Assembly (NCBI GenBank): GCA_903813345.2
Contig: CAIIXF020000007.1
Location: 17,404,714-17,468,713, forward strand
Reading direction: 5' to 3'
DNA length: 64,000 bases
Origin: Owenia fusiformis
Taxonomy: Eukaryota; Annelida; Polychaeta; Sabellida; Oweniidae
The notes below the pieces were generated by a model. It did no database searches and had not been told where the DNA came from. It worked only from the letters and a program-made list of their open reading frames with translations. Each line of letters opens with the position of its first letter. The stretch's first letter is position 1. Position numbers and translations under genes: made by a program. This document shows positions 1,641 to 60,412 of the stretch, piece after piece.

Positions 1641-3001
1641 ATTGTTTTAGGTGGTGACATTTTGTCATGTTAATGCCTTGTATTATCCATACAGAACATT
1701 TAATCTAAAGTAGAATAATAGATGGCACACACATATTTTTAAATAGAATTATCCAAAATATCAGTTTTTATGTCAACACCAAAAAATGGTGACATGCAAT
1801 TAATTGTTATGGTCTTTTTTTGTGTCGGTGCTGTTGTACAGTGATATCCCTTACAATAGCCATGTCATGCATGACCGTGGTCATTCTCAATATTCTCAAT
1901 GTCCCATCCTAGATCAGGGTGTGCGTCAGCCTCAATAAAGCATGCCAGTCGTTCAAGGCTAAACGAATAATTGCCTGTAAATGAAATTTATAAAAAACTT
2001 CCAAATGAGGCCATGTTATTCACCATATAAGGTATTCACCGTAAAAGGTATTTACCACTATAAGGTTTGAATCATGTTAATCACATTTATTTATCCCATG
2101 GACCTATATTGATTTAGGTCCATATTTATCTCAATAGTAATAATTATGAATTTATAATGTATTTATATTCATGGTATATATCAACTTTTCAATATCAAAC
2201 TAACTCCATAAAAATATTTTCAGCCCTTTGACCATTCAGTTCTTATGTCTATGTCAAACGGATTATAAACGCAAAGGGCAACATTAAATATAAACGTAGA
2301 TTCCAAAATGCTTCAAATCGAAGCTTTAAGAGATGCTCGGAAAGCTTTACGATAAACACCAAAAACAAGGAAGTCGTATTTAATGTGAATCCCCCCGGTC
2401 TATTATTACCCTACCTTTCTAAAGGCAAACTTGTGTGTTTCAAGAGAGTGTGAATATGTATTTGTAAAATAAAATTCTTTATTTATATCATCCAAACAAA
2501 AGTAAACTAGCATGAATACTTCGTTTAACCTTTAAGTGTTTAAATTTTAACAAAAAGCTTTTATATTTTATAAACTAAAGGCGTAACAAACGAGTCTTTT
2601 ATATTGAATAGAATTATCATGGGTCACACCCATTAAGACTATTACTCATATTTCCGATCACGATTCTTATAAGAATTGGGCCTTGTCCGCTTTGTGCACT
2701 TTCCAAATCAATATTTGATAAGGTCACTTAAACCCATAGGAGCTTAACAAGTCAGATTTGTTCATGGGATTTATTTAAATGCACAGTTTATAAGTTTATA
2801 ATCAGTGCACATATAGTCCAGCAGGTCACTTTTCGTGCGTTTGCCAACATTTTGATCAGAACAACCAACACGGAAAAGCTTATCTAAAATCAGTAGGTGC
2901 TACCGGACTACGGGAAGACTTGTCACGATACGATTAAATTGTCATGATAGTTGACGTATGAAATAACTCGGAATATCTCATCAGAAATGGAACATTCGGC
3001 A
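1641..3001. other. Upstream intergenic region of astacin gene 1
   Basis: No coding region is recognised. The region must contain the promoter and 5'UTR of gene 1. AT-rich TATA-like strings (for example ttatttaaat near 2768) are present, but in DNA this AT-rich they cannot be assigned. There is no obvious similarity to the sequence just upstream of the two paralogues. Confidence 0.5.
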
Positions 3002-3497
3002 ATGCTTCTAGGAACATTTCTGGTCTTTATATTGGCCACTGTCATCCAAGCTAATCAAGATAACTTTCAAAATGTACAAATAGCGTTTGCTACTCCCCAC
3101 GCTATCGAAGAAAATTGGATATCTAACGACCACAATGACATTGCTGACAATATCTTAAGTGAACTCACCGACGCTGAGCTGGATAGTCTGTTAGAAGAGT
3201 TACACATTCCCAAACAGCAAGGTGATATCATATTGAACAAGAAACAACTTGTACAGAAGATAACGAACATGGAACTTAGGGATTACAAAAACAGAAACCT
3301 ACCAAATGAAGTGGATCTAAAGAATCGACCCAAAGGAAACAATCACGAGGGCGAACACACAACAGATTTAATAAGGAAATACAAGGTGCAACATTTAGAA
3401 AATAAATCGCAAAAGAATCGTGTTAAAAGAAAGATGAAAACGGGCTATGTTCAGGAGTGGATCTTTCCCATAAGATTTAGTTTCATATCTTCATACA
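3002..3497 (+). CDS. Gene 1 exon 1: signal peptide, propeptide and mature N-terminus
   Basis: The exon encodes a hydrophobic start ([17 protein letters not shown]), an acidic propeptide and a dibasic site RVKR at residues 140-143, where a furin-type protease would release the enzyme. Asp75 lies in QQGDI, the position and context of the astacin 'FxGD' aspartate switch that blocks zinc in the zymogen; the usual Phe is Gln here. After [13 protein letters not shown] matches the astacin mature N-terminus (usually WPNGVIPY). The exon ends in phase 1 at ACA|gtaagt. Confidence 0.85.
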
Positions 3498-6400
3498 GTA
3501 AGTTTTCAAATGACTGATTTAATACAAGGTCTTATTCAAAACATTGGAATTTTTAATGAATATATTCAAAGGTAAATATCCGCGTGTGGTTTTCGAGAAG
3601 TGGGGCTTTTACGTGACTGTCTACGTTCAACGATTTGAATGACAGGTTTAATAATAGGCCTTGGGTTTGACCAACAGTAAATGTTTAACTGGATTGCACA
3701 TTATATGACATGTACTGTGTGCAGTATTCATTATAAAGAAAACACAAAGGGCAACACTTTACATCCTTCTTCAAAGGACTTCATTTATGCTTATATTCAT
3801 ATTATATATATAGGGGTTATGCACTGGGAGGTTTTGGATACAGGGAATATCCCGAGGGATATACAATATATCTTCCCGAGGGACCGAAGGGACCGAGGGA
3901 AGATGTATAGTATATCCCAAGGGATATTCCATGTATCCAAACCGACCGTGCATAACTGGTGTATCTCATACTTGAGTGGGTTTAGGGTAGATATAACCTT
4001 TTCCACCTTTTTCAAATGACAAGATATTTATATTTAACATTTTCGTAATATTATTTTTGTTCAATACAATGAAATTGTAACATTTAAACTTAAAAAAATT
4101 AAATTTTAAAATTAAAAAATAAAAACTTTTGATATTTAAACTTTTGAAAAATTCCCGGGAGCGGGATGGATATATTATATCTGCCCGCATTTGGCCTGGA
4201 GCGGGACATATACAATATATCCTGCCCGCTCCTCAGATACGATATATATTCCCGGGTGATATCTACCCCAAACCCACTCAAGTATGAGATACGAAATACT
4301 ATATACCCTTGCTGCAAGGATGCCACTTTAGGCCGTGTATGTTTTTTCACATGACGCCCTAAGTTAAGTGAACGTAGATACCTGTACTGTATACTGTAAT
4401 ACAGTGAACAGAGCAACCAAATATACAATTTGCAATTACAATTTTATCTAGCATGTAATTTATCATTCCATAACAAGACAACAGAGAGCTAGTACATCAC
4501 GAAACATATCATTTTAACGTTTATAATATGTTTAAAATTCAGTTTTTACGAGATTTTTGTATCCATTTTGTGACAGATCTTCATTTTATTAAAGCGTTTT
4601 AATTGGGTACTAGCTAGTTCTTACCGAGCCTATTAAAGGGTTTGGTTTATTGAATATAATACATTGTCGTATTACAACTTATAGTAACAACAATCGGTTC
4701 TTTGAATTGTTTATTTACGTATCGGGAAGTAACATACTAGTATGTGTACACAATATGTTATATTATAGGCGACGAACAGAAAACTGAAATACGAGGGGCG
4801 CTCCAGAACTGGGAAGATGCTACGTGTGCAAGTTTTACAGAATCAAACGACACAACTGCCCCAGCGATGTTCTTTGAGCCTCTTCAAGGGTAACATCATA
4901 TTAATCCAAATTCACCTCATTCAAACCAGACAATCAGAATTCTGAAGTGTCCAAGTTACTATATACGTAAATGGGTTGTAATGAATATTACAGAAAGTTA
5001 AATAGGCCCCAGTGACAATGAACGATGACCGTGAAAGACACATGAATAGGCTCCAAATAAACACGACAGGTGAATAATACGAATAACAAAGGTAATGATA
5101 GACATTGCTTTAAAAGACTGAATCATCATCTAAAAATGTTTTTATGTTTCAGGTGTTATTCTAATGTGGGTCGGGACCCTTCATCAATCAACACAGTGTC
5201 GCTTGCAGAATCGTGTTTTACGGTAAGTTCAATTCATTAAGTCGTCTTAACAGTATAACCTCAATGAAATATATTTTATCAATTTTTAAAATGTAATTCA
5301 ACTTTAATTGAAAAATTCGCAATGGAATACATGTTTGCATCTTATGGTTTTTGTATGTTCAGTGCCGTATGCATTCTTGTAGCAAGTTTCAAATAACGAC
5401 TTGAATATACGGCACATGGATGAGATAGTCCATGCTTAGTATTCTTAGAAGATCAGTAAGATAATGTCTATAATTTTTTGTTCAGAAATTGATGATGCAA
5501 TGAATACTATATTAGTAGCTATGTGTTAATATTCTATTTATCTATTCGCTAGACCGCTACCATTGAGCACGAGATCGGGCACGCCCTTGGCTTCTACCAT
5601 GAACAAAGTAGACCAGATAGGGACTCGTTTATCACCGTGAATATCTCAAATGTCGATTCAGAGAAGTCAAGTAACTACGATATATTATCTTGGGACGAGG
5701 CTCTAACATACAATATAGAATATGACTATGGCTCAGTCATGCAATACGACAAACGAGTAAGTTTGATTTCAACATGCAACTGATTCTTCATTCTAGTTGA
5801 AAAATAATTCCGATCACCTTATTGGTGTAGCCACCCATAAATGCCGTCGTCCCATAGATTGCATAATATTAATAATTACTTCCAATAAAAATATGATCTT
5901 TAATTAAATGCAGGCGTTTACAAGCAACGGTGGGATGACCATGGTCGCAAAAGATGGCGCTTATGACAATACACTTGGACAAAATGTCGGCCTATCGTTT
6001 TCCGACATAAAACTATTTAACACAGAATACTGCAGTGGTACGTAAATCTATAAAATGGTTTTATACATATTTGTAAACTATGATATATTATGTGTGGACT
6101 GGGAGTCTATTGAAACATATGCAAATATTTTTAATGCAACAATGTTATTGACATTGGCCATGTACGTATTTGATCTGTTTTCATACAAAATATAAAACCG
6201 TGTTGTATCTTTCTTAAAGGTTCCTGCAATGGGTATAGAAACTTAGAGTGGAAAGATTGTCAACATGGAGGATATAGGGACCCCAATAATTGTAACGTAT
6301 GTAAATGTCCGGATGGATGGACCGGAGCTACATGTAATACAACAAGTCCCCCTGTCAATGGTAAATATTTTTGAAATATATACATGAAGTTCACAATAAT

Positions 6401-9400
6401 GATAAACGTGCAAAATTATTTCTTATTTCCGAAAACACAAAAGAACAATTAAAAGTTAAGTGGAAACAAAACAAATTATTGAAACTGTTTGGTATTTCTT
6501 TATTAGCTGTATGCGGAGCTGAACTCAGTGTGACAACACCAGGGGAGTTAATGACTCCATCTTACAATGTAGGATACACCAAAAATACTTCATGTACATG
6601 GCTACTTACTGTAAGTATGCGCACATAGCCATAATATCATATACTAGTAAATGACTTAAATGTAGTTCTTAACTTGAAATGAGCAGAAACCCATGTATGT
6701 GATCTAAGGTACAATAGGTTTCCGATTAAAACTGTTTAATAAATTACATCTTTACGATATTCAGAAACATATCCATCATCATTCATACACATAATTATAT
6801 TATCGTTTTTTATAGGCAGATGAAGGTTCCCAGGTGACAGCATCATTCGTTGGGGATTTTGGCATTGATTGCTTAAATGATGCAGAGTCGGGCTGTGATA
6901 GAGATTGGGTGGAAGTCAGATACAATGATTTACAACATACTGGACCAAGGTGATACTTTTAGACTTGCGCTAGTAGTTTTTCTTATACGGTTGTTTCATA
7001 ATTTAGTAATAAATTTAAGTATCCTATAGTTTTTAAGAATTAAAATTGGTTCGAGTCAGATCTTCTAAAATCCCTAATTCCTTTGAATTATGTGAATTAA
7101 AAATCAATTTAAAATAAAGGCCCGACCATTAATGTTTTTTTTATACTTTGATACAACGCCAAGTGAACCACAGTCCAATGTGCTTCCATTTGTTTACTTT
7201 AAAGATTCTGCTGTGGCACAACACCAAGTGGAACATTTGTATCCAAGGGCAACCAGATGATGATTCTATTTCGCTCGAATACAATATTTAGTGGATCGAC
7301 ACCTATCCCGAATAATGGATTCAAACTACAGTACTCTTTAACTCCAAGTAAGTAAATTATTTTTGGATTGTGAATATGGTTCCTGAACTGTAGAAGAGGT
7401 TTAGGAGGGGGAGTTAAATATTGAGTACTCTTCAAAGTAAATCAGACGATCCTAGCATGTGGTTAGTACAAGAGCCTCTCCAAACACACAATTAGTTTAA
7501 ACGGTACAGTTGATAGGGAATGGTCACTTTTCAATTATACTTTATCTTTCAAATATAGTAAACTTTATCACTTGATTAAACCTGAGACTAATAGATTAAA
7601 CACCGCTGTATCAAAGTGATTAACGGATAAGAAGACGTAGACGAAGCTCTCTTTTAAGAGGCTAAGCTAAACGAATGCAAAGGGTACTATTAGTTACAAT
7701 ATTTTGAGTATACGATAAATAAAGATATACAAGTATGGGTGATTGGACTAAATACGCTTGCTTAGTGTTAACCTTAATTAATTAATAAATCCTTAATTGC
7801 TATTCGTTATTTAGGAGTTGGGAGTCTCCCATGTGAAAGTCTAAAACTGTCTGGTTTGTCACAGTCCCCCAAGCAACTATGGCGAACAGGAATCTTCAAA
7901 CTGCAGTCGATGCCATGGAACTCCAGACCAGTTTACAAACACCTAGTTGAGCCAGTGTTCATGTTTTATGACAGTGGATATTGGCTCATAGGATCAACTA
8001 TTGGGGAAACTCAATCAGGGATACGAGTGCTCAGTTCAGCGTTGCAACCACAAGACGTAACAGGGGTTTGGGAATCTTTTAGTGGCACCTCTTGGGTAGC
8101 TGAGTCAGGTCTGGTTACGTCATGCTCAGCTATATGTGACAGGATTTGGTTTAGTGGTGTTTCAAGAACTGGACCACATGCCTACTTGTTAGGAGCCTAT
8201 AGTTTTTCAAATAATGACTCGAATGGATCACCTATCTACAAGAAACAAGATGCCACAAGCAGTGGTGAAATAACAATTAGAATGTCTGGTGGCAACAAAT
8301 GGAGTATTGTATCCGAGTCTGAAACTATAACCACAACGTTCACGACAACCATCACAAACCCAGTTGAAGTTCCAAATGTATGGACTGTGTCTTCTGGTAC
8401 GATAGTCCTGGAATGCTACTTTGGTAAGTATGACGGAAACCAAAGAAACAATTTACAGATATATTGGCATAATCCTTAATCGTTGTTTCGACCATATACA
8501 GTGTGGTCAAAAAATGGAAACCTTGTATTTTCCTAATATCTTTGTCATTTTAAAGAATTACTCCCTGATATTTCACATATTTGTACATCATTCAATTTCC
8601 CACGACCCTACCATATTTCATGACCATCAGACTGATAGTCACAATTTAACAGCACTTTGAATAACATGCTTCAAGTTTGGCTATCATCGCGCTGTAGGCA
8701 AACCTGCACAGTTATCAATGGGCCGAATGCATTCCTTAGCAGGTATGGCCTGAATGATACGAATGATCTCACTTTTGAGGTTTGTGATTGTCCTGAGGTA
8801 ATTCTCATACACTTTTTCCTTGCCATATCACTACAGGTAGGGACATTTTGGACGGCGAGTGCAGGTGGCCCGACAGCGTAATATTGGCCACTATATATGT
8901 TTTCTTACATCATCATGATAAACCATGACATCTCTTTTGGTTTTCTTCTTTGTAGGTCCAGAAGAAAATTGTGGTGACGTCATGTTAGATGGTGGTTCTG
9001 AACAAAGATCAAGACAGGGCATCTACTCATTGTATGGTTCACTTCTCAATGGAAGACCTGTATATATTCACGAAGATGGAGTAAACTTTCTGTTTCACGT
9101 CATTATTGATCAGGCGTCGAGGTTCTGGTACATTTCTACTGATATTGGCAATTCCCTAATAGGCGCCATACGTGTCGAGGACTCAGCTATGTCGGCTGAA
9201 GGCATTACTGGCACATGGGAAGCATACATGATACAGGACTGGGTAGTTGAAACAGCAATGGCCACATCATGTATAACTAGTATGTTGCTTTTGATATCCA
9301 TCTGAACAATGAACTAAACAATCGAAAATAATTTCCTCTTCATGTATGATAGACTAATCAGTTTAGAGTTCCATATCTGAATTCGGAATTTCAATTGATC

Positions 9401-12400
9401 AGATCATGCTTACTATTGCATCATGAGTGTTATGCAAGGTGATTTTATGTAATCGTCGCAATATGTAAGAAGTAGAGAGCCATATATCTGGGGGATTCCT
9501 CTTAATTCATTGTTCCTTCAGTATCAATCTTTCTGTTTCTTATTATGTATGTTAGTCCATGTAGACTTCTTTTCTTTTTCTTACCTTTTCTTTTCACCCT
9601 TTTTAGGAATATATGCCCTAAATAAAATGTTTATAACTTTCCAGATAACACTGCCCCAAGCGCAACTTTGTATATCGGTGGTGTGATCACATCGTCTACT
9701 CCACAAACCGTCAGGCTAGGACTATACACTATACACGGAGACTATCATAATTCTAGACCAGTATATATTCATGAATCAAACAATAGTTATCTGTACTACT
9801 ATAGTGGACTTTGGGTGATTGGCGCTACTATTGGTGAAAACCAGTTTGGTATAAAGACATCTGCAGCATCCCTTCTACCTCAGGAAATAACGGAGCCCCT
9901 ATATGGATTTGTTTCATCTACTGGCTGGACATTGATGGACGGAATCACTATTTCCAGCTACATGGATACAGGTAAGCAGATAAGATATACCTGACAATCA
10001 AACAAACATGTACATGTAAAAGTAACATCCACAGTTAGAGAAACAGACAAACAAAAATGAAACATAGACAAAGAAGGGGTGGGGCAAAGATTCACAACGC
10101 AGCTTTGCGAATTGGGTAAATTGCGTGTGGGAACGTTAACCCGCAAACCGAAACGCTACTTTGCACATGCTTCCGAAGCCGTCCGAAGCTTTCTGAAAGG
10201 TTACTTCAACATACGAACACCCAAATGATGTAAAACGTACATACTCTAATGGGAACGAATTTTACTCAAAGTCCTATTCGCCAGTACACGCAAGTTGACG
10301 TCGGGGATTTTCGTCCACATGTGAGAGGGGCTTTACAATTCCTATCTTATATTCTTCTTAGGTGATGGGTCTTGTCGAGAGCTCCAGCTGTCTGGCATAG
10401 GGGATTCTGCGTTCAATGGTCTGTATGAAAATAACGACCAAGAGGTCGGGAGTAGACCAAGTTACAAAAAGTCTGGTGGGGGTCTCAACCTTTATTTCAG
10501 AGCATCGAGTGGACAATGGGTAATTGGAGCAGACCCTATTAATATAGCTGTTGGTTATTTTGCTTATACAAATGATCCTGCTGTGGATCCAACTAAAACA
10601 AGTAATTGGAACATGTACGATGGTAGTGGTTGGGTACCCCAGCCTGAAGTAGTGTGGAGCTGTCTAGATGGTAAGCTGATTAAAGATCATTAAGTTATTA
10701 CATTCAAGGCATTATTATAATTTATCAATATTGCTGTGCTCATCTTATTGCAGTTATTAGTGCATAGTTGACACGGTTACTTTATTCATTTGTATTAATT
10801 TCAGTGACAACTAGTACCACAGCTGTACCAACTACAACAGCACCTGTTCTAACAACTACCCCACCTGTTGCCATGACTACTACCACACTTGTACCAACTA
10901 CTTCTACAACTGTTTCAACTAATAGCATACCTGGTGCAATTAGTACCACATCCGTAGCAACTAGTACCACAACTGTAGCAACTAGTACCACACCTCTAGC
11001 AAGTACTACCACGCCTCTATCAACTACATCCACACATTTACCAATTACTATTGCAGCCGAAGCAAGTACAACCATACCTGTAACAGCTACCTCAACACGT
11101 GTGACAACTACAACCACACCTGTAGCAGCTAGTACAACTGTTTCAACTACAACCACACATTTACCAACTACTACTGCACCTGAAGCAAGTACAACCACAC
11201 CTGTTTCACTTACGACCACACCTGTACCAACTACAACAATAACTTTAGCAACTACTACCATATCTGTAGCAACTAGTACACCACCTTTACCAGCTACTAC
11301 CACATCTTTAGAAGCTACTACTACAGCTGCACCTACTGCTTCCACACCTTTACCAGCTATCTCAACTCCTGTAGCGATTAGCACCACACCTGTAGGAACT
11401 ACTATCACACCTAGTACACCTACAACTAGTACCACATCTGTAGCGGCTACTACCACACCTGTAGAAACAAGTGCAACAGCTGTTCCAACTTCTAACACAC
11501 CTGTGTCAACTACTTCCACACCTTTACCAACTACTTCAACACTTGTAGCAACTAGCACCACACCTGTATCTACTACTACATTTATACCAACATCTACCAC
11601 ACCTATACCTACTATTACATCTGTACCAACATCTACCATACCTGTACCAACAACTACGACACCTTTACCAACTACTACCACACCTGTAGCAACTAGTACA
11701 TCACCTGTAGCAACTACTTCCACACCTTTACCAACTACTACCACACCTTTACCAACTACTACCACACCTGTACTAACTAGTACCACATCTTTAGCAACTA
11801 GTGCACCACCTGAAGCAACTACTTTCACATCTTTCCCTACTTCTTCCACACTTTTACTAACTACAGCACCTGTACCAACTAGTACCTCATCAATAACAAC
11901 CAGTACACCACCTTTACCAACTACTCCCACACCCTTACCAACTAGTACCTCATTTGTAGCAACTAATACACCACCTGTAGCAACTGCTACCACTACTCTA
12001 CCAACTGCTTCTACATTAGTAGCAACTAGTACATCACCTGTACAAACTAGAACCACAACTGTAGAAACTTCCATCGCACCTTTACCAACTACTACCATAC
12101 CTGTACCAACTACTACCACACCTTCATCAACCACCTCAAAACCCGTAGCAACCAGTGCCACACCTGTATCAACTAGTACCACTCCTATATCAACTAGTAC
12201 CACATCTGTGGCAACTACTTCCACACCTTTACAAACTACTTCCACACCTTTACCAACTACTACTACACCTATATCAACTACTACCACACTTGTACCAACT
12301 GATACCTTACCTTTACAAACTACTTACACACCTTTATTAGCTACTTCCACATCATTACCGACTACTACCACACCTTTACCAACTAGTACCACACCTGTGC

Positions 12401-15276
12401 CAACTAGTACCACATATGTACCTACTAGTACCACACATTTACCAACTAGTACCACATCTATAGCAGTTACTACCACCCCTGTATCAACTACTACCACGAT
12501 TGTAGCAACTACCACCACATCTGTTGCAACTACTATCACATCTTTACCAACTACCTCGATACCCTTATCAACTAGTACCATACCTTTACCAACTAGTACC
12601 ACACCTTTACCAACTAGTACCATACCTTTACCGCCTACCTCAACACCTGTGCTAACTAACACTTTAACTGGGTCAACTACTACCACAACTATCTTAGCTC
12701 CTACTACAACTGTTCACACGACGGAAACAGCCACATTGACATCTGGATCCATCAGTACTACACTGAGTCTCCCGACTACAACAGAAGACGTCACTACATC
12801 TGTATCAAATAATAACACGACTGTTCATACGACCAGTTTGACATCTGAATCCATCGGTACTACAATGAGTGTTTCGACGACAACAGAAGCGGTCACTACA
12901 ACTGAATCAAATGCATGTGGAAGAACAACTTGTCCTCCTGGTCGAGTAAGCGATAATTGTGCAAAACGTAAGTGGACGTATGCCTTCAATTACCAAGTTA
13001 GCTTTCATGTTCGCATCAAAGAGATGTGTGAATTCTGAATGACCATGCATCAGTGTTTATATAAATGTCTAATATTTTGATGTATTTAGGTGGATATGCA
13101 TTTTCGAGTGTTCTCCGATTAAACGATGAGTTTTCACAGACATTGAAAGATGAGGAATCAGTTGAATATAAAGACTTCGAGGAAAAGTTCCTGTGCACGG
13201 TATGTACCACACATTAGTATTAAAGTAAAAGTATAATTTGGTGCTATATTCATCTGCTGTTAACTAGTAAATGAACAACACTATCAATCATTTCAAGTGT
13301 TGACATATTGTTGTAACTTTTTTATTGGCGGTGTTCGGAGGTTGGAATTCGACGTTCAGCGTCTGTATGGCAGGTGGTGAGATTTTGCATGTTGATGCCT
13401 TGTTTGAATGGCCAGGAGGTGTTAGATATCGTTATATGGACGTTATATCATTGATTGAAATGCTGGTATTTGTTCAGGACTTGTGATTGATTTATTTCAA
13501 AACAGTGCTATATGATATTTTCGACTTGACCTTTTGTGCCCACATACTGATATGTTTCTGTCCATTTTAGGCTAGTGAAGGCTATAAAAATGGTGGTCTT
13601 ACGAACAAATATCGACCATTCTTGAAGGTGGAGAATGTAACCAGTGGATCTATCTTGGTAGCGTATTCCCTGACTTTAGAACCATTGTCAACAGATGACG
13701 TTAACGATCCCCCAACAGCTGATTTGGTGAAGGCGTCATTCAATGTCACAGCTGCAAACCAATTTGGTTTACTTAACTACACCGCTCCACCCGAATCAAC
13801 AATAGGTACCATTTTCATATCAATCATATTGTTATCATTTTTTCAACTTTTTAATCGTTATGTGTGAAGACAAATATGGATACAGAAAAAATGCATATGG
13901 TTGACAATACAATTGAGTTGATGCTTCACACAGTGATAGGGAAAATCAAATACTACATTTCTTTTTCTATCTCTTTTAACCATTTAAAGAAAAAGAATAC
14001 TGAAATCAAAAGATATTATACGCTGATGCAGCAATGACGGAAATAGACATATTCTGTTTTTGCCACTTCGTAAAACATCGTTTTATCAGATGAATACAAA
14101 TGCGCCTTCTAATTTGATGTTTCTTAGTATTTGGAAAGCAATATTTTATGTTATTCTACAGATTACGACGAGTGCTCAACGCAAGATTCCAATGATTGCC
14201 ACACAAATGCTTTGTGCACAAATCAGATTGGATCATACACATGCGCATGCGCCTTTGGGTTTGTTGATGAAAGTGCTGACTCTACCTTACCAGGCAGAAT
14301 TTGTAAAGGTTGGTTTCGGATTTTGAAATATTAACATATACATGTGTTTCTACAGAATGTTGTACTTTTTCACATTTTAGGTTATATTCTATCATATTTT
14401 ACTACACTTTATCATATGTTTTGTATTGTATTGTATTGTATTGTATCATTCATTATAGATTCAAGCATGGGCTTTCAACTTCTAGTTGAAAGCCCATGAT
14501 TCAAGTTACTAATACTCTGAACATTTTTTTCAGCTCAAAGTGTATTTAGCAGTCTGGAGCTGATCTTGATCATCGTGGGTGGGTTCCTAGCTGTCGGTCT
14601 TATTTTCGTAATCATAGCAATATGTTACTGTATGAGAACAAATTCATCTCGTAAAGATAATCTGAAAGAAGCTGAAATCAATCGTGCACATTTAGGCGAG
14701 GATGTATCAAGGAAAGAAATCGTATACAATGCGAATGAAGAGCGTGTTCCTCGTGAAGTATACGGTTATGATAAGAGAGATACTTCAGTACCAAACGTCA
14801 TAATGGCGCCAAACATTGATGATGAGGAATACGGACAAACATACGAATATATCCAGCCTGAGAACCAATATACGATTCCGCGATTTACAACTTCTCTTGC
14901 ATTTAACAGCAATATTTTAGCTGTTAAGAGGGATCTTCCTGGTCCTGCGAGGGGTAATGGGGAAATCTACAGCCGCGGCGCCAAGGAGGACGCAAGGCGA
15001 CCAACATTACCGCCACCTACAGCGAGAAATACCAACATTATACAAAGAGAAAATACTTATTTCACAAATGGAAAATCCATGATAAATCAAAACAGACAAA
15101 GTCAAGTTTATGTGAATGGAAATTCAAATGACCAAAACAGACAAAACACTTATCTACAGCCTATGTCTGGTCCTAGTAGATCAATGGCAACTGGCGACAA
15201 TCAACGAGTGTTTAGAACCAGTGCAAATGTTAACCCCAAAAGGCAATCAGATATAAATAATGCAATTGTGTATTAA
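3002..15276 (+). CDS. Astacin gene 1: membrane-anchored astacin-CUB-mucin-SEA metalloprotease
   Basis: The coding exons are 3002-3497, 4769-4889, 5153-5222, 5553-5756, 5914-6037, 6220-6360, 6507-6610, 6816-6949, 7205-7347, 7815-8423, 8956-9279, 9645-9971, 10362-10670, 10805-12967, 13090-13199, 13571-13805, 14162-14308 and 14534-15276. All junctions use GT-AG and join in phase to 6504 nt, predicting 2167 residues. Domain order is signal peptide, propeptide, astacin (zinc motif near residues 235-246), EGF (~340-385), CUB (~386-512), five RPVY repeats (~519-1034), Thr-rich mucin (~1036-1738), Cys module, SEA (~1757-1871), EGF_CA (~1872-1920), transmembrane helix (~1930-1953) and tail to 2167. 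By family knowledge this is a secretory-pathway zinc endopeptidase; anchoring through mucin, SEA and EGF is not meprin-like. The start at 3002 is chosen because the paralogues begin MLL at the same place; an in-frame ATG at 2987 is the alternative. The substrate is unknown. Confidence 0.88.
3498..4768. other. Gene 1 intron 1
   Basis: 1.27 kb, longest of the gene 1 introns together with those flanking the repeat exons. It contains the two-hairpin element (3812-4310); the remainder is AT-rich and unremarkable. Confidence 0.8.
3812..4310. mobile_element. Two-hairpin foldback element in gene 1 intron 1
   Basis: The first hairpin (about 3815-3955) pairs gttatgcactgggaggtttt, ggatacagggaatatccc with gggatattccatgtatcc, aaaccgaccgtgcataac. 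The second (about 3960-4293) pairs gtatctcatacttgagtggg with cccactcaagtatgagatac. Small ORFs here are shadows of the palindrome. Confidence 0.75.
4769..6037 (+). CDS. Gene 1 exons 2-5: astacin catalytic domain
   Basis: Exons 4769-4889, 5153-5222, 5553-5756 and 5914-6037 encode the catalytic core. Exon 4 carries [12 protein letters not shown] (zinc ligands His235, His239 and His245, general base Glu236) followed by the family signature SRPDRD. The Met-turn reads SVMQY, with Met292 and the zinc-proximal Tyr294; most astacins have SVMHY. Four cysteines (DATC, GCYS, ESC and EYCS) fit the two disulfides of the fold. All catalytic residues are present, so activity is expected. Confidence 0.92.
6220..6360 (+). 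CDS. Gene 1 exon 6: EGF-like module after the astacin domain
   Basis: The exon encodes a six-cysteine module ending [12 protein letters not shown], with [11 protein letters not shown] in the middle. This is the cysteine pattern that links astacin and CUB domains in many invertebrate astacins. Both boundaries are phase 1, so it is a clean shuffling unit. Confidence 0.85.
6507..7347 (+). CDS. Gene 1 exons 7-9: CUB domain
   Basis: Exons 6507-6610, 6816-6949 and 7205-7347 encode about 127 residues with CUB hallmarks: VCG start, [20 protein letters not shown], a [19 protein letters not shown] strand pair, RFCCG and the closing GFKLQYS. CUB domains in astacins usually mediate substrate or partner binding. 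Exon 9 is unusually similar to exon 9 of gene 2 (26794-26936). Confidence 0.85.
7630..7686 (+). mobile_element. TACCCT/AGGGTA mini-element, partial, in gene 1 intron 9
   Basis: The right part of the short repeat (acgaagctctcttttaag ... cgaatgcaaagggta) is present; the left end is degraded. Complete relatives lie at 40740-40811 and 62984-63066. Confidence 0.6.
7815..8423 (+). CDS. Gene 1 exon 10: RPVY repeats 1 and 2
   Basis: One exon encodes two ~95-residue units. The first starts at Cys519 and shows SRPVYKH, a YWLIG strand and VWESF, ending at TSC. The second is more divergent ([22 protein letters not shown]) and ends at LEC. The pattern suggests a small beta-rich module closed by one disulfide. 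I recognise no named family. Two stretches of this exon are almost identical to gene 2 exon 10. Confidence 0.85.
8956..9279 (+). CDS. Gene 1 exon 11: RPVY repeat 3
   Basis: One repeat unit in a single phase 1-1 exon: [37 protein letters not shown] and a closing SC. It corresponds to gene 2 exon 35322-35648. Confidence 0.88.
9645..9971 (+). CDS. Gene 1 exon 12: RPVY repeat 4 (no counterpart in gene 2)
   Basis: The exon encodes [18 protein letters not shown], a [16 protein letters not shown] core and a GWTL strand. It lacks the flanking cysteines seen in the other units. It is phase 1-1, so gain or loss keeps the frame. No matching exon was found between gene 2 exons at 35648 and 36900. Confidence 0.87.
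10362..10670 (+). CDS. Gene 1 exon 13: RPVY repeat 5
   Basis: The exon encodes [20 protein letters not shown], then GSRPSYKKS, a [18 protein letters not shown] core and [11 protein letters not shown]. It is the same length (309 nt) as gene 2 exon 36900-37208 and is the last globular unit before the mucin domain. Confidence 0.87.
10805..12967 (+). CDS. Gene 1 exon 14: Thr-rich mucin domain and Cys module
   Basis: A single 2163-nt exon encodes about 700 residues of Thr/Ser/Pro/Val/Ala sequence, a dense potential O-glycosylation stalk. Most of it is a degenerate 7-residue repeat ([14 protein letters not shown] and similar) from a ~21-bp minisatellite. Two ~33-residue repeats (TTVHTT ... TTTEAVTT) follow, then a module with three cysteines, [15 protein letters not shown]. 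The open antisense frame is a by-product of the composition. Confidence 0.9.
10830..12660 (+). repeat. Coding ~21-bp minisatellite in the mucin exon
   Basis: Units resembling acacctttaccaactactacc repeat many tens of times and stay in frame over about 1.8 kb. Copy number is expected to vary between alleles. Confidence 0.85.
13090..13805 (+). CDS. Gene 1 exons 15-16: SEA domain
   Basis: Exons 13090-13199 and 13571-13805 encode [27 protein letters not shown] and then [12 protein letters not shown]. The G-S-I-L-V core at Gly1819-Ser1820 matches the SEA autoproteolysis motif (G|S-V-V-V in MUC1). SEA domains of transmembrane mucins cleave themselves here and stay associated non-covalently. Position just above EGF and membrane fits this role. 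No named-family search was possible. Confidence 0.8.
13310..13430. repeat. Remnant of the left-edge repeat in gene 1 intron 15
   Basis: The stretch ggcggtgttcggag ... gtctgtatggcaggtggtgagattttgcatgttgatgccttg resembles both ends of the 1-1670 block (ggcgtctgtaac; gtggtgacattttgtcatgttaatgccttg) without the tandem units. Confidence 0.5.
14162..14308 (+). CDS. Gene 1 exon 17: calcium-binding-type EGF
   Basis: [13 protein letters not shown] opens a six-cysteine module with [14 protein letters not shown], the EGF_CA pattern (D-x-D-E-C, then G-S-Y-x-C). It lies between SEA and membrane, as EGF modules do in several transmembrane mucins. It is 147 nt and phase 1-1, identical in length to gene 2 exon 39274-39420. 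Confidence 0.88.
14421..14446. repeat. (TTGTA)n microsatellite in gene 1 intron 17
   Basis: Five near-perfect pentanucleotide units. A diffuse relative lies near 46380-46490. Confidence 0.8.
14459..14505. mobile_element. 33-bp perfect hairpin flanked by 7-bp direct repeats
   Basis: Positions 14466-14498 form a perfect 15-bp stem (CATGGGCTTTCAACT and its complement) with a TCT loop. Direct repeats ATTCAAG lie immediately on both sides (14459-14465 and 14499-14505), as expected of a target-site duplication. It sits in gene 1 intron 17. Confidence 0.7.
14534..15276 (+). CDS. Gene 1 exon 18: transmembrane helix and cytoplasmic tail
   Basis: A helix [20 protein letters not shown] is followed by [11 protein letters not shown] and about 210 polar residues. 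The tail has many tyrosines ([13 protein letters not shown]), a proline run (RPTLPPPTA), Asn/Gln-rich stretches and the C-terminus AIVY, which resembles a class II PDZ ligand. These motifs suggest intracellular partners, by inference only. Stop TAA is at 15274-15276. Confidence 0.88.
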
Positions 15277-20136: not shown

Positions 20137-20647
20137 ATGCTTCTTCGAACAGTGCTTAGCGTCATATTTGCTACATCTGTCCTTGCAAGTAAATATAAAG
20201 GACGATTCGGGCATTTAGGTTTAAGCAGATACGACCCTCCTCGTCCCGGCTCAGGTAGGATATTAAACAATAAGGATATGACCAACAATATTCTTAGTGA
20301 ACTTACTGGCACTGAGTTAGACAATCTACTGGAAGATTTACACATTTCGAAAAAACAAGGCGATATCATATTGAACAAGAAACAACTTGTACAGAAGATA
20401 GCGAACATGGAACTTAGGGAACATTTCAGCGATCAAAAGTACAGAACCCTACCTAATGAAGTAGACCTTAATAACAGAGCGAAAGTGATGCATCAAAAGA
20501 GCGAACATATCAAGGAAGTGCTCAAGAAATATAAGATGCAACATTTTGAAACCATTTCGCAAAGAAAACGTGTTAAACGGAAGATGATAACTGGGAACGT
20601 GGAGAAATGGGTCTTTCCTATTCAATTTAGTTTTAACAATACATACA
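20137..20647 (+). CDS. Gene 2 exon 1: signal peptide and propeptide
   Basis: It starts MLLRTVLSVIFATSVLA, then gives an acidic propeptide with KKQGDI (candidate switch Asp76), the furin-like RVKR at 145-148 and WVFPIQFSF. About 57 nt around the GDI motif are almost identical to genes 1 and 3. Confidence 0.85.
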
Positions 20648-23600
20648 GTAAGTTTAAACAACATTTTAACCTCCACTGAGTGATTGATTGCATATAGGCA
20701 TATGCAAGTTGATATTTAAATAATGAATGGGTGTAATTTTGACTCTATTATTTACTTTATTATAATACATGAACAGGAGTTTCAGATTTTGTAAAAACAT
20801 TCGTAATTTGCGCTAAGTAAATTAAGCTATCATTCGACAAGCAAACATAATTTGATATATTTTAGCCGAGGAAAACAAAACTAAAATACGTGAGGCGCTT
20901 CAGAACTGGGAGGATGCTACTTGCGCAAGTTTTATAGAATCTAATGTCACCGCGGCACCTGCGCTGCACTTCGATCCTCTCGATGGGTAAGTACTGATTC
21001 ACCGGCAATAAGAACGTAATTTTCATGACTTTTTGGCATGGAAGGCTCGACGAAAACAAGATTTAAGATGCAAGATTTTATTGTGTTGCAAGCTAAAACA
21101 ATTGGCTTCCTCACAAAATCAATAACAAGACATAGTTATACAGTAAAATGCAGTGTTAATTATATAAACAAACCTTTAATTATGACCATCTTACAAATTA
21201 GTGTATTCCTTTTTCAAATATGAGAACTTGACAATAGAAAATATATCACATATGAAAGTATTTCACTTGTATCTCATTTGTCAAAACAATCCCAGAAGTT
21301 GTCACCAGTTTATTTGTCTCCGTTTGAATTATAATAATTTTACTAAAACGTAGTTTTATAAACCATTCTATGTTTGATTGAATTGATATATAAATACAAA
21401 TGAAACACAAATCAGTCCATGAGAGCTACACTGATTCTTAATCTTAATAAATATGCAAAATATCTACATGCAAAAGCAATGTTTTTAGTTGCTATTCGTA
21501 TGTGGGGCGTGAACCATCAGCTACCAACATAGTGTCACTGGCAGAGGGATGTCTTACAGTGAGTTCAATTCACATTGTTTGGACGAGTCATGAACTTGCA
21601 ATTGTATACATTTAGTTTATTGCTAGAATGAAGAAAAGAGTTCTTCATCCTAGGTTAATTGACAAGATATAGTTTAATAGTATAAGTAGATTTGATCTTA
21701 TTGAATAGATATGTATTTCTTACTTCACTTATTCAATGACCGATTGATTGGCTGATCAAATTGATTGATTGATTGCAATTGATTGGTTTACATTTCTTGT
21801 ACTGAACGAAATAAACATCTCCTAAAATAAATGACAAAGTATAGGCTTGCATTGCTGGTAATACATCTAAGTTGTACTAAATTAACATATTTGGCGTTTT
21901 GATAGACAGGTACTATTGAACACGAGATCGGCCACGCCCTGGGATTATTCCACGAACAGAGTCGACCCGATAGGGACTCGTTTATCACCGTGAATATCTC
22001 CAATGTGCATCCGGATCAGGCCAGTAACTACGATATATTATCCTGGCACGAAACTCTTACGAACAACATAGAATATGACTATGGCTCGGTCATGCAATAT
22101 AACAAACGGGTGAGAATGTTTCAAAGATATTTGGAGGTCATTTGGCTTATCAGAATTCACAAAAATATTTATAAAATAGCAAACTTCAATATTTTGTAAC
22201 CTATGCACCTCTGATCATGAATGCTTCCTGAAATCTTATTGTTAAAATAAGATGTTATAATGTGTTTGTTGTAGGCATTTACAGGTGATGGTGGTATAAC
22301 TATGATCGCAAAGGATGACATGTTCGACAATACAATGGGACAGGATGCCGGCCTTTCTTTTTCCGACATCAAGCTATTTAATATAGAATACTGCAGTGGT
22401 GAGAATAAGATAACAATTGACCATATTATTAGATTTGCAAAAACTTATCGGGAAGTATTCCAAAAAATTATTTTATTTGTCCCAATGGCCACAATCATAC
22501 ACACTACATGCCTGATTACTCAGCAAGAATGTCTTTGAAAGACCGTAGTATGAGGAAATGTTACTGTATTTCATAATCTTGTCACATTCACCTTTTTATT
22601 ACTTAAAATTACTGTAAAATTGTTATTTATACCTCGAAACTGGGAATAAGCATTCTATTACCTAAACTTTTACCAGCAAAATATTTAAAAAGTCTACGCA
22701 TTATAAAAAGACGTTAACTATATTACAAAATAAAAAATATGTCTTTTGGCTCCTCTGTACATATTACAGAAAATAAAACCAAATATTAGATGCAACCTTG
22801 AAGTGACTTGTGCAAATTAAGATGTAAGAATACTCCCCTTAAATGTAAACATGTTTGTCAATACTTTCATATTTAAGGGTGGAGTGAAGTTTAAATTGCT
22901 GTCAAGTTTGTGTAAATACCAAATTATTTAAATGAGAGTAAGGACACGGATTTTATAAACATGTTTGTAATAATATTAGAATAGGATATTTTTACTGGGA
23001 TAGCGTGACAGTCCATTACTATAATTCTATGTCCCATGCTTTTGGTTTTAGAATTATTTCAATAGCATTTTGCCCATGAAAAGAGTTCTTCATCCCATAA
23101 CCTTTGCATTCGTTTGACTTCACTTCTTAAAAGAGAGCTTCGTAGTTTAACTAGACTCTGCGCGCAGGGTATTCATCCAGTCAGATTCATCCTAGAACCT
23201 GGCTCTCAAATCTTAATAGTCAATTACGATTCGCGGATATATTTCCATTTCTCGATTTTCGTCAATCTACGATGTTATCGTAGAACTGTATATTGTACAT
23301 ACCTTATTCATTGCTGGTGAAAGCATCAACAATGCATTTCAAGGTACTATTGGGTGCGTGGCAGTCATGATCTTCCACTGTTTCAAAAGAAAATAAATAG
23401 AGGTTATTTATTCCATAATACTACTGTTTTCCCAGGGAAATATGAAGGAATAAAAATCGTATTGAATCGTATTACATGAAAAAATCGTATTGTCCCCGGG
23501 AAAAAAATCGTATTGGAGCGTATTACATGGAAAAATCGTATTGTCCCCGGGACAAAAATCGTATTGGAACGTATTAACCTATTTTTGGTTTTCCCGGTTA

Positions 23601-26600
23601 TTTTTAACCTTGACTAATTGATAAAAGCATTATCCAAATGTAACATTTTAAGGAGGAATGTTATATGGAATAAATAGGTTATTTCTGGTCGGGATTGAAT
23701 ATGGGTTTTATTCCTCGGAAAATATGATATTGACCTTGGGAAATATGATATTGACACTCGGTCGCTGCGCTCCCTCGGTCAATATCATATTACCCTTCGG
23801 TCAATATCATATTGTCCCTCGGAATAAAACCCATATTCAATCCCTCCCAGTAAATAACCTATATATATTTAATGGGCCGAGAGATTGAATATGAGTTTTA
23901 TATATATATTTATCCCATACTATTTTTCTGAATTTTGTTCATTTTCAAGTTGATTCAATTTGATTCATCATATAAAATCTTCAACTTTTAGTAACACATT
24001 TTTGTGAATGTAAAGTAAAAATCGAGAGAAATTCCCGGGGCGGATAGATGTGATATGGGATCTGATTTTTGGATGATACGAGATCCAATACGGGATCTGA
24101 TACGGGATTTTTTAAATATCGATTCTATTCCCTGTTAAACATCCAATGGAATTATGGAATTATGTTAAGTGACCTTACCCTCGTCCAACCTATTCTTTAA
24201 GATGATAGATTATAGTGTGTAAAACTGCTGTATACAATTTCTGATCTTTCGAATACATGGCAGATATATTCTGGCTGGAAAACATCAATGTTTAAACTTC
24301 ATTTATGAGAACTTCCACGCGTAAGGGAAGATGTATTGTCTGTTTTAGGGCAATTCAATCTCAGATATTGTGTTTGAATGACTATCAAGGCAAATCTTAT
24401 GATACTCAATTATTTTGAACTATTCTTTACCAGAACTTTTGAATCCACTTGTGCACTTGCCAAATGACAGATTTTGTACTTCATTTATGAGAACTTCCAG
24501 GTGTAAAGGGAAGATGCATTATCTGCCGTGATACAATGACGTTTCGGGTATTGTGTTTAAATGGCTATCAACCAGTTTTGATGATTCAGTTGGACAAAAG
24601 GAGCGTTTGCGTAATTTTTCTCTAATCGACAGAAAAATGTGAACAAATTGAAGCCCTTTAATTTTCACGTTAATATGTATAACAATTTATGTCAACATTT
24701 TGAGCAAATATTTTCTTTCATTATGTTTTATGAATAATGGATGAACTAAAAGTACTGGTTTTAAGGAGGAATATTAGTTCTCCTAAGACCAAGTACGAAT
24801 GGTTTATCTAACTTAAACCTCACACTGACTCTCATGAAAGGTAAATGGTCCATGGTCCAATTTGAGGAATATTTATGCATTGCATGTAACAGGCCAGGTA
24901 CGGTTCAAAATTTTATTTCTTTTGTGTGTACTATTCAACTATTGAATTAGTGAAAAAGGTGTAATTAGTAAGTTTAGTTCACCTCATGTGACATTTAATC
25001 GTTTTTTGTGCAACACTGATTTTGAATAGCTTGCCAAGTGTCAATTCTTTAAAAAAGAATAGAAAAATGATGCACTCAACCACAGTTCATTCTATTTTGC
25101 TGCTAATAAGTGGAGTTTAACAATGTCATAGTACATCAAGAATAAGATAATTAAAAGATTAATTGTGCTATGAAAATGATTTCTAACATATTTACTGATC
25201 AGCTTCAACGTTTGGCATTGGTAATAATTGTACATTTTCACCTTTTACTCTAACAATTCAAGGTGATAGAAATTTTGATATCAAATCGCATTTAATCTCA
25301 ATTATAAAAATTACTAGAATAGTATGACAATAGTATAGTGCTTACCCCAAAATTGCATTTGGACGTATCTGTTAAAAACCAGTTAACATCAGTTAATTCA
25401 TCGCAAACAGCGCCTTTTGAATATCAATGTACAAATAGTACTTATATCGTAGAAAACTAAAATTGTCAATCCGCGAATAGTAATTGACGATGTTTTCGAA
25501 AAACGGACTCCAAGTTTTGTACGAGCAAAACTATTTTCGAGACAATTCAGTTATATTCCGACTTAATTCAATAATGAAAATCGTTTCAATTAGGTTCTTG
25601 CAATGGATATAGAAAGCTAGATTGGACCGAGTGTCAACATGGAGGATATAGGGACCCCAATAATTGTGACGTGTGTAAATGCCCGGATGGATGGACTGGA
25701 GCTACATGCAGTACAATAAGTCCATCTACTAATGGTACACATTTTGGCTAATATATTTCCGCTTTTCGCGTTTTAATTATGTTTAAACACTGTTCCATTA
25801 GTACATATTATGTAAATTATAACTATGATTTTGGAAATAATATTCAAACAATAGTTTACAAAACTGACATTAGTTCAACTGTGCATTCGAATTTATCTTT
25901 ATTAGCTGTATGTGGAGGTGAGGTGAATGTGACTACCATACCAGGAGAGTTAATGACTCCATCGTACAATGTTGGATACATCAAGGATACCTCGTGTACA
26001 TGGCTACTTACTGTAAATATATTTCCAATAAAGATAATAAATGCTTCAATGGTGTCATCTAACCAAAGTGTAATTAACCTTGTATTCGCAAGTGCAATTA
26101 ACGCCTGTCGGCTAACGGATTGATCTACTGTTTTATGGCCAACTCATTTAAATATGAATGGAATAGTTGCAGGTACTATTCATATTTAAATACAATAGTA
26201 AGCTAATCCGGTAGCCGACAGACGTTAGTTGCATTCGCGAATACAAGCTACAAGTAAATGTTCTGGTCATATTCTGCATTTTACTAAGTGGGCCAATTAA
26301 ACTCACACATATGTTTTTATCAATGTTCTATATACTTTTATTAATTAACAGGCAGATGAAGATTCGCAAGTAACAGCGTTATTTTTGGGGGATTTTGGCA
26401 TTGATTGCTTAGATGATGCATATGAAGGTTGTGATAGAGACTGGGTGGAAGTCAGATATAACGACTTACAACATACTGGACCAAGGTAAATTGTTATACG
26501 GATAGAATGTTCAAAAATAATATTTTATTCTTTCTATATGAAATCACAATCCAGTATTGAGGGCTCATACATTAATAGGTCAGTATCGCTTAGGTACAAA

Positions 26601-29600
26601 CTTTAACTTGATGTCCTTGTAGCAGCTGTGGCTTTCGCATTCGTATACGTTTTGCGTTTTCCTCTTACATTCCGTTTTTTTTCCTTGTTTCACTGTGTCA
26701 ACATATTCATACGGTTACTAATCCCTAAAATACAAAACTGCAAGTGAAACATGATCCCATTATGCTTAGATAACCGCATCAATTCCTTTGTAGATTCTGC
26801 TGTGGCACAAGACCAAGTGAAAAATTTGTATCCAAGGGCAACCAGATGATGATTCTATTTCGCTCGAATACAATATTTAGTGGATCGACACCTATCCCCA
26901 ATAATGGATTCAAACTACAGTTCTCTTCAACTCCAAGTAAGGATGTTTGATTAGTACCTGTGATGATGTACCATGGCAATCGGGTTTATTGAATATTCCT
27001 AAATGATAAGGGGGGGGGGGGGGTTCGGATGAGGTAAATAGAATCAATTGTATTTACATCAATTTTGAATTTTGAATTTGTCAATTCTGACAATTCTATA
27101 TTTTTTATATTTGTACTTGCTAATGATACTCGTAGGCTACTTTATAGGAATTTTCAATAACTTTGAAAATACTCAAAAAGTGATTAACCTCTTCAGGACA
27201 CCCGATATATAATTAATTAAAACTACTTTTGCAAGTTTAAGTTTATAATAGGCGGGCAGAATTGGAGGTCCAAAAAAAAGTTTAATGTACAGTTGCAACA
27301 TATTCTCGAATTTGGTACCGTTGGAAAGCTTGTGGTGCCTAGATTTGAGATCCACTTGTTAGCAATTATGAAATGTGGGCCGAATGTGTCTAAAACGCCC
27401 GTTTCCATGGTAACCACAAAAATATGGTGTTAATAAGCAGAAAATTGTTTTTATGCATAACTTTACTAATATTGCTCCGATTTTAATGAAATTGGTATCA
27501 AATTAAAGAGAATTAAAACTCCCATTTTTGAGATTTACTTTTATGCAAATTAGCTCATTTGCATATTGATTGTGACGTCATCACTGCATTATTTTGCGTA
27601 TTTTTTGATAAACGAGTATATTTATTTCAGTGTAGTAATGTACAGTGGCAACATATTCATGAATTTGGTACCATTGGAAAGCTTGTGGTGCCTAGATTTG
27701 AGATCCACTTGTTAGCAATTACAAAATGTGGGCCGAATGTGCTAAAATGCCCGTTTCCATGGTAACCACAAAAATATGGTTAATAAGCAGATAATTGTTT
27801 TTATGCGTAACTTTACTAATATTGCTCCGATTTTGATGAAATTGGTATCAAATTAAAGAGAATTAAAACTCCTATTTTCGAAAATAACATTTATGCAAAT
27901 TAGCTTATTTGCCTATTGATTGTGACGTCATCATTGCATTATTTTGCATATTTTTTGATAAACGAGTATATTAATTTCAGTACAGTAATGTACAGTTACA
28001 ACATATTCATGAATTTGGCAATTATGAAAAGTGGACCGAATGTGTCTAAAATGCCCATTTCCATAGTAACCCTAAAAATATGGTGTTAATAAGCAGAACA
28101 TGTTTTCTCATGCAAAACGTTACTAATATTGCTCCGATTTTGATGAAATTAGTACAGGGTGTTCAAAAAAACGCAACCCAAAGAAATCGCGATATCTTGG
28201 AAAATACTAATCCAATTATGTTCATATTTTCAGGAAAGAAAGAAAACAAGTTTAAATTTCAATATTTATTCGTATACATAAAGTGAGTTCGTATTCTCTC
28301 ACTGTAATTGTAAGACTGCTTGATACTTGTGTTGGAATGGAATACTGACCAAGCAGTCCCCTCCTTCTCATTGGATAACCCTGTGTTACTATGGAAACGC
28401 TCAGACCACAAAACCCCTTATCGGCATAAGTGTAGAATATGTATGTATAGCCCCTGTTGTTAGTTAATTGTAAAACATGATGTCTTGGACACTTGCTCAA
28501 AAGACAGTTGTATAGCAAAATACGAAAAATGTGAATGGAAAATAACTATATCTTGGAAAATACTAATTCAATTATGTTTATTTTTCAGGAAAAGAAAGAA
28601 GAGACTGTACAATGTATAGCTCCTTGTCAGGAAGTTGTAAAACATGATGCCCATGGACACCTGCTCAAATGACAGTTATACTAGGAAAATATGAAAACGC
28701 GGACAGAGGTGACTGCCACAGCAATAAAACCAAATAATTTTCTAACCATGGTGTTTTGGCACTTCAGATTTGGCACAAATTATCCTTATTCAATGTGTGG
28801 TGGATTTGTGAAGTTTCATTAAAATCACTTTAGGGACTTTATAGTCATGGTCAAAATGCCTTCTTAAGTCTCCCTGAACCAGGGCGTTTGACTGCGATTT
28901 CAAAGCATTTCAACCATGACAGTGAAGTCCCTGAAGTGATTTTGATTTATCTCTACAGATTTATCAAACAGTGAATGAAGATGGTTTGTGCCAAATTTGA
29001 AGAGCTAAAACACTATGGTTAGGAAGTTATTTAATTTTTTTGCCGTTGCAGTCACCCCTGACTGCGTTTTTCGCATTTTGCTAGTTCAACTGTTTTTTGA
29101 GCAGGTGTCCAAGGCATCATGTTTTACAACTAACCATTGACAGGAGCTATACATACACAGTCTCTTCTTTATTTCCTGAAAATATGAACATAATTCAACC
29201 AGTATTTTTCAAGATATAGCAATTTCTTTGGGTTGCGTTTTTTTGAACACCCTGTATTAAATTAAAAAGAATTTAAAGTTCTAGTTTTGGAACTTACTTT
29301 TATGCAAATTAACTAATTTGCATATTGGTTGTGATGTCATCACTCCATTATTTTGCATATTTTCAAATAAATGAGTATATTTGATTCAGTACGGTACTGT
29401 GCAGTTACGATATATAAATTAATTTTGTACCGTTGGAAAACTTATAATGCCTCCTCACCCGCTCGTTACAAGGCATATTCGCAAGCACTCCACAACACAA
29501 CGCAATTTTTGCGAATTACAATCAGGATTTGTATCATCCTCTAAGCCTGTAAGCGCAACGCAATCGCAAATTGAAAGATGTTCCAATCGCAACTGGCCAA

Positions 29601-46884: not shown

Positions 46885-46970
46885 GTTAGTATTTGATTCT
46901 AAACAATTTCACTCACATGCTACCTTAAGCTTGTATACATGTATTTCATGTTTAAGAAGGAAGTTCAAGA

Positions 46971-47361: not shown

Positions 47362-47390
47362 CTTTTCAATTATCTTAGCTCTCCAATGCA

Positions 47391-48183: not shown

Positions 48184-48186
48184 TAA

Positions 48187-56205: not shown

Positions 56206-56297
56206 CTACACTTTACCTATTACCCTTTAGCTACAATATGATATTGTCCACCTATCATTTATCAAACCAAATCTCATTAAAAATTATGGTTAACTAA

Positions 56298-60381: not shown

Positions 60382-60412
60382 CACAAATGTTAACTGACTT
60401 GAGTTGTAAAAA

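Follow-up and report, generated by a model that had tools for sequence, protein, structure and literature searches.

Gene content of the window

The window (the whole 64-kb stretch of Owenia fusiformis DNA analysed here) contains two tandem copies, and part of a third, of a predicted gene on the forward strand in which an astacin protease is joined to the membrane-proximal parts of a transmembrane mucin. The G+C content of the window lies between 31 and 41% by 4-kb blocks, and scans of the window with Rfam (gathering threshold) and for tRNAs returned nothing.

The coding region of copy 1 (2987-15276, +) was re-derived from splice sites and reading frame and comprises 18 exons. All 17 introns are of the GT-AG type, the exons join in frame and the sole stop is the last codon, while the remaining two frames of the joined sequence contain 118 and 154 stops. 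With the ATG at 2987 as start the protein has 2172 residues, and with the in-frame ATG at 3002 it has 2167, the latter being the 18-exon product proposed in an earlier note on this DNA, which was recovered. From the N-terminus, the order is signal peptide, prodomain, astacin domain, EGF, CUB, five unnamed repeats, stalk, SEA-like domain, EGF, transmembrane helix and tail. The exons and features of copy 1, all on the forward strand, are as follows.

2987-3497, 4769-4889, 5153-5222, 5553-5756, 5914-6037, 6220-6360, 6507-6610, 6816-6949, 7205-7347, +: exons 1-9
7815-8423, 8956-9279, 9645-9971, 10362-10670, 10805-12967, 13090-13199, 13571-13805, 14162-14308, 14534-15276, +: exons 10-18
2987-3430, +: signal peptide and prodomain with GDIIL, ending in the furin-type site RVKR (hydropathy and motifs; homologous in copies 2 and 3)
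3431-6037, +: astacin catalytic domain, end of exon 1 to exon 5 (Pfam PF01400, E 9.5e-57)
6220-6360, +: first EGF-like domain, one phase 1-1 exon with six Cys (Pfam EGF_2, E 2.5e-4, 21.8 bits against a cut-off of 22.1)
6507-7347, +: CUB domain, three exons (Pfam PF00431, E 2.4e-13)
7815-10670, +: an unnamed domain, about 100 residues long, repeated five times, R1 and R2 in exon 10, R3 in exon 11, R4 in exon 12 and R5 in exon 13, all phase 1-1
10671-10804, +: intron 13 (134 bp), separating R5 from the stalk, with ATTAAA at 10679 and, if retained, an in-frame stop at 10691-10693
10805-12967, +: mucin stalk exon (701-residue stalk, by composition), then a Cys linker
13090-13805, +: SEA-like domain, two exons (Pfam SEA, E 0.028-0.034, below cut-off), with the Gly codon of GSILV at 13646
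14162-14308, +: calcium-binding-type EGF beside the membrane, one phase 1-1 exon (Pfam EGF_CA, E 4.4e-9)
14534-15276, +: transmembrane helix and a 216-residue tail with several tyrosines (hydropathy)

Among the domains named in the earlier note, astacin, CUB and the second EGF (as EGF_CA) were recognised in Pfam scans of pieces of the joined protein; SEA and the first EGF (as EGF_2) fell below their cut-offs. Seven exons of copy 1 (6, 10-14 and 17) are of phase 1-1, and skipping of these could yield other forms.

The astacin head

The signal peptide of copy 1 has a hydrophobic peak starting at residue 4. RVKR is found in copies 1, 2 and 3. By offset, the residue following it corresponds to the start of the meprin beta chains 7aq1, 7auw and 4gwn (query 10 / chain 10), which presumably begin at the mature end of meprin beta. 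For the crayfish astacin chain the offset differs from that of the query by three. The motif FXGDI is given as common to the prodomains of animal astacin orthologues (PMC9848320); here it reads QQGDI in copies 1 and 3 and KQGDI in copy 2, with GDI kept and the Phe replaced.

The catalytic domain matched PF01400 with 192.2 bits in copy 1 and 191 bits in copy 2, against a cut-off of 22.5, and its best match in the PDB was meprin beta (E 4.4e-25). HEXXHXXGXXH followed by EXXRXDRD is present in copy 1 ([19 protein letters not shown], from 5568) and in copy 2 ([19 protein letters not shown]), with the zinc-site residues, the Glu and the RPDRD after the zinc motif all kept in both. The Met-turn is SVMQY in both copies (from 5733 in copy 1) as opposed to SIMHY, retaining the Met and the Tyr and differing at the other two positions. 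Copy 1 is predicted, with high confidence, to encode an active enzyme.

The repeat domain

The earlier note had described five RPVY repeats. Five repeats were found, of which only three read RPVY; the other two read RPSY and SPIY. The five match one another in phmmer searches (E-values for a database of five sequences), R2 being the most divergent. RPVY-like motifs similar to these occur in algal proteins.

The repeats showed no significant similarity to Pfam, the best match being DUF4183 (E 0.046, 13.9 bits, cut-off 25.1), and no family was found in NCBIfam. PHROGs gave two families, each in one of nine members (E 0.076 and 0.21). Against PDB sequences, three chance-like matches were obtained at E 0.91-1.3 and none in a second search. 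Of the 28 viral_contigs matches and 24 genome_contigs matches returned by pattern searches for relatives in viruses and prokaryotes, tblastn confirmed none, and the pattern had no match in phage records.

An AlphaFold2 model of R4, with the nine repeats of the window as input, was obtained at a pLDDT of 91.3 and a pTM of 0.85 and is mostly beta with one short helix. Foldseek comparison of this model with the PDB gave 182 matches at E <= 10, none at E <= 0.001, with a top TM-score by query of 0.41 among the best 50 of the 182. Against viral predicted structures, 235 matches were returned at E <= 10 and again none at E <= 0.001. The top neighbours there were a calpain-like protein of Aureococcus anophagefferens virus (probability 1.00, TM by query 0.56, E 0.057, identity 12%) and a protein of Clandestinovirus (probability 0.99, TM by query 0.58, E 0.076, identity 10%). 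These giant-virus folds are a lead for the modelled domain, not a demonstrated relation. The position of the repeats and their repetition suggest a binding function. With a confident fold prediction and no significant match in Pfam or the PDB, the domain is a target for study in its own right.

Stalk, SEA-like domain and membrane anchor

The stalk of copy 1 consists of 54% Ser+Thr and 14% Pro without Cys, and is based on a 21-bp repeat whose array occupies 10808-12658. The linker behind it carries Cys 1745, 1750 and 1759. In copy 2 the stalk is 215 residues long with 51% Ser+Thr and just 5% Pro, and its repeat units are longer than the 21 bp of copy 1.

SEA was the only Pfam match in the region following the linker in copies 1 and 2, at E 0.01-0.034 and 14.7-15.8 bits where printed, against a cut-off of 26.4; the scan of copy 1 in six pieces gave E 0.028 and 15.0 bits. 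In Smith-Waterman alignments, GSILV falls on the GSVVV of the MUC1 SEA domain, GS on GS. The human MUC1 SEA query was confirmed against solved MUC1 chains, which end or begin exactly between G and S. The alignment score was reached by none of 2000 shuffles for copy 1 and by one of 2000 for copy 2, where the real score was 55 and the single higher shuffle scored 60. When the SEA-like domain was shuffled 20000 times, GS with a hydrophobic triplet behind it came up in 127 cases, so that the motif is weak by itself. It is kept in copies 1 and 2 inside a stretch differing at 28% of residues.

Searches of the PDB with a two-copy SEA profile returned no SEA chain, the sole match up to E 10 being guanylyl cyclase C (E 0.65). 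The MUC1 SEA query itself matched, beyond MUC1, three proteins at E 0.056, 0.13 and 0.15, which we take to carry SEA domains. The second SEA exon, modelled by itself with AlphaFold, reached a pLDDT of 44, too low to locate GSILV relative to the strands. It is likely, though not proved, that the domain with GSILV is of the SEA type, and self-cleavage of it is predicted as the probable outcome. The four Cys of linker and SEA-like domain (1745, 1750, 1759, 1797) all precede G1824, and the six Cys that follow belong to the EGF. If pairing is within domains, no disulfide need therefore bridge the halves of a split SEA domain.

The transmembrane helix was placed at about residues 1934-1956 (14557-14625, ends chosen by hand), where a hydropathy of 3.21 over 19 residues is the maximum of the protein. 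EGF_CA adjoins it near the C-terminus of copy 1, an arrangement that also belongs to the definition of a meprin. The tail after the helix counts 216 residues in copy 1 against about 20 in copy 2, and this difference in length means that any signalling by the tail would not be common to both copies.

Tandem copies and selection

Two further copies were located by tblastn downstream of copy 1, on the same strand.

20137-39705, +: copy 2, tandem paralogue with 17 exons and 1379 residues, same domain order (in-frame join, no internal stop)
34046-37208, +: repeat-domain region of copy 2
37305-38003, +: Thr-rich stalk exon of copy 2
38485-38594 and 38734-38968, +: SEA exons of copy 2
39274-39420, +: EGF of copy 2
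39551-39705, +: transmembrane helix and short tail of copy 2
45795-46884, +: copy 3, partial, exon 1 (45795-46308) and exon 2 (46764-46884), open and with splice sites

The exons of copy 2 have the same order and phases as those of copy 1. The two copies have 15 internal exons in common, of which 11 show no difference in length and four differ by multiples of three, all with equal phases. The R4 exon is absent from copy 2, as no R4 match up to E 5 was found at its place in the 1251-bp intron 35649-36899. Because copy 2 repeats the exon order and phases, a chance assembly of the architecture is untenable. For copy 3, a search to E 5 of 46886-64000 gave short chance-like matches only and no convincing later exon, which leaves either a disrupted copy or one that extends past the end of the window; exons 1 and 2 of copy 3 have a dN/dS of 0.30-0.32.

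Comparison of copies 1 and 2 by the Nei-Gojobori method (500 bootstraps) gave the following dN/dS ratios.

Prodomain 0.26, astacin 0.15, EGF 0.26, CUB 0.20
R1 0.23, R2 0.28, R3 0.18, R5 0.33
Cys linker and SEA 0.27 (0.17-0.45), EGF2 0.29 (0.11-0.88), transmembrane part 0.28 (0.11-0.58)
Stalk 0.51 (0.36-0.73), alignment unreliable and value unused

With ratios of 0.15-0.33 and 95% upper limits that stay under 1, all domains that could be aligned between the two copies are under purifying selection. A reading of the copies as pseudogenes was rejected on the open frames and on a dN/dS of at most 0.33 in all segments but the stalk. Outside the stalk, dS varies from 0.33 to 1.20. Synonymous change is low at residues 482-506, 557-606 and 684-708 of copy 1 (pS 0.0-0.17 against copy 2, elsewhere mostly 0.2-0.85), with 25-codon windows at 0.06 from residue 482 and at 0.0 from residue 684. 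This pattern suggests gene conversion between the copies, and each dN/dS ratio thus averages over stretches that differ in age.

Other sequences in the window

Satellite-like arrays of about 350 bp lie at 27283-28018 and 32514-33970, in the 7.1-kb intron between CUB and repeats of copy 2. An identical open frame of 186 residues occurs twice, 1100 bp apart, at 48783-49343 and 49883-50443 (+); one of the two was scanned and was weakly zf-RVT-like (E 0.0065, below cut-off). Pieces of a LINE-type retrotransposon are found at 56298-62002 (-), with matches to RVT_1 (E 2.2e-22) and Exo_endo_phos (E 1.6e-11), and the frame 60413-62002 (-) had no Pfam match.

One gene or two

Either half of the copy 1 locus by itself would be an ordinary protein, and the locus could be read as two adjacent genes, one for a secreted astacin-EGF-CUB-repeat protease and one for a separate transmembrane mucin. 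The ATTAAA and the in-frame stop within the 134-bp gap of copy 1 would suit such a reading, and a tandem duplication could have carried two neighbouring genes along. However, the gap between the halves measures just 134 bp in copy 1 and, at 37209-37304, 96 bp in copy 2, and in both copies phase 1 is found at the end of the last repeat exon and at the start of the stalk exon. The gap of copy 2 has neither AATAAA nor ATTAAA and is open in frame, such that one open frame (36872-38032) spans R5, the intron and the stalk. No Met lies just upstream of either stalk in the open frames, so a signal peptide for a separate mucin would need an unseen exon, and the exon order is duplicated between copies 1 and 2. 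Two separate genes are thus very improbable. The same features of intron 13 could instead make the secreted protease the main product of a single gene, by an early end or by other splicing, with the membrane form as a minor one; meprin alpha also loses its EGF and transmembrane part and is secreted, though by cleavage (PMC4545420). Against this, SEA, EGF2 and transmembrane part are under purifying selection between the copies, which means that the membrane form matters, and the intron of copy 2 has neither the hexamer nor the stop. We consider a mainly secreted product improbable, if somewhat less so than two genes, although a shorter secreted form of copy 1 ending early in intron 13 is possible. 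The first AATAAA or ATTAAA past the stop codon is at 15915 in copy 1 and at 40180 in copy 2.

The copy 1 locus is very probably a single gene with the architecture given above, as judged from the genomic sequence. The claim of the earlier note that a complete astacin enzyme and the membrane-proximal parts of a mucin are combined in one gene gains backing from the two tandem copies. The main argument for this architecture is that enzyme and anchor are both selected, in one order, in two copies.

Comparison with known proteins

Meprins alpha and beta (MAM-MATH/TRAF-EGF-TM) likewise tie an astacin to the membrane by a type I anchor, with an EGF close to the membrane. They differ in that CUB, unnamed repeats, mucin stalk and SEA-like domain are found here instead. 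No MAM or MATH domain was detected at E <= 10 in Pfam scans of six pieces of copy 1 outside the stalk and of copy 2 up to CUB. The contrast with the MAM, MATH and EGF of vertebrate meprins drawn in the earlier note stands as far as the absence of MAM and MATH is concerned, but meprins are not strictly vertebrate, being reported from Ciona as well (PMC4545420). The protein is not a meprin and is an apparently new architecture inside the astacin family.

The order of astacin, EGF and CUB is shared with echinoderm astacin-EGF-CUB proteases of the BP10/SpAN type and with BMP1/tolloid. The known proteases of these types are secreted. In the present protein, CUB is followed by repeats, stalk, SEA-like domain and transmembrane helix. 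MUC1 and its relatives have in common with it a Ser/Thr-rich tandem repeat, a SEA-like domain with GS and a hydrophobic triplet, a transmembrane helix and a tail, and some transmembrane mucins carry EGF domains. They differ by the enzyme head found here and by the weak recognition of SEA in the present protein. Matriptase and the other SEA-bearing type II transmembrane serine proteases resemble it as membrane proteases with a SEA domain. Matriptase also has CUB domains; it is a serine protease of opposite membrane orientation, with no mucin stalk. Its SEA domain is cut at Gly-Ser in GSVIA and stays attached non-covalently (PMC3799725).

A combination of astacin, mucin stalk and SEA was not found described in the open-access papers searched; a SEA domain in a helminth astacin, or database entries with this architecture, are possible. 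The legend to Figure 1 of a 2023 astacin review (PMC9848320) lists 31 domain abbreviations, among them 'LC' for low complexity and 'C' for cytoplasmic tail, with no SEA or mucin, and the word 'mucin' is absent from its main text. A helminth astacin survey is cited there for over 100 partner domains. The mention of 'astacin' together with 'SEA domain' in PMC10381214, in the portion concerned, relates to different proteins.

A proposed model for protease-bearing mucins

The genes probably form a tandem family that encodes type I membrane proteins, namely protease-bearing transmembrane mucins from which the enzyme can be released by way of the SEA-like domain. The precursor would enter the secretory path, and a furin-type protease would cut it after RVKR, at the expected start of the mature astacin chain, thereby freeing the active site. 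An O-glycosylated, stiff stalk would hold the enzyme far above the membrane, in glycocalyx or mucus, with CUB and the repeats binding substrate or matrix glycans. The SEA-like domain would cleave itself at G-SILV during folding, after which the part with enzyme and mucin would be held non-covalently on the SEA-EGF-TM anchor and come off by shear or another trigger. SEA domains with GSVVV or GSIVA are described as cleaving themselves in the loop between strands 2 and 3, with the halves staying associated and shear as the likely force that separates them (PMC6954182). We infer release by SEA autoproteolysis, as we do the other steps after translation. Whether regulated release of the enzyme is the main point of the protein is a more tentative matter, and we lean slightly against it.

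The same membrane protein could also remain whole, with the SEA-like domain serving as a spacer or folding uncleaved, and the enzyme working while tethered, as a cell-surface ectoenzyme like meprin beta. This would agree with the weak SEA match in Pfam, with the description of meprin beta as a membrane-bound sheddase (PMC9848320) and with the membrane-adjacent EGF that is also found in human and mouse meprins (PMC4545420). It is at odds with GSILV, which occupies the position of the MUC1 site in both copies despite the divergence around it, and we regard a permanently tethered enzyme as unlikely, though clearly less so than either alternative to the gene structure discussed above.

If release from the SEA-like domain is pursued further, the proteins might be self-splitting protease mucins: an astacin atop a mucin brush, freed mechanically at a pre-cut SEA-like domain by flow or contact, with the enzyme still bound to its own mucin and aimed by a carbohydrate- or matrix-binding repeat array new to structure databases, while the tail of copy 1 signals to the cell that the head is gone. 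Taken as a whole, this picture is speculative and unlikely.

Astacins of other metazoan phyla that bear MAM and EGF domains are, according to a passage of the 2023 review, apparently not membrane bound (PMC9848320). Two copies with selected transmembrane exons would counter that statement, with an astacin placed at the membrane otherwise than in the meprins. If the SEA domain is confirmed, the protein would be the metalloprotease counterpart of matriptase, and release of an enzyme by force could be tested on it.
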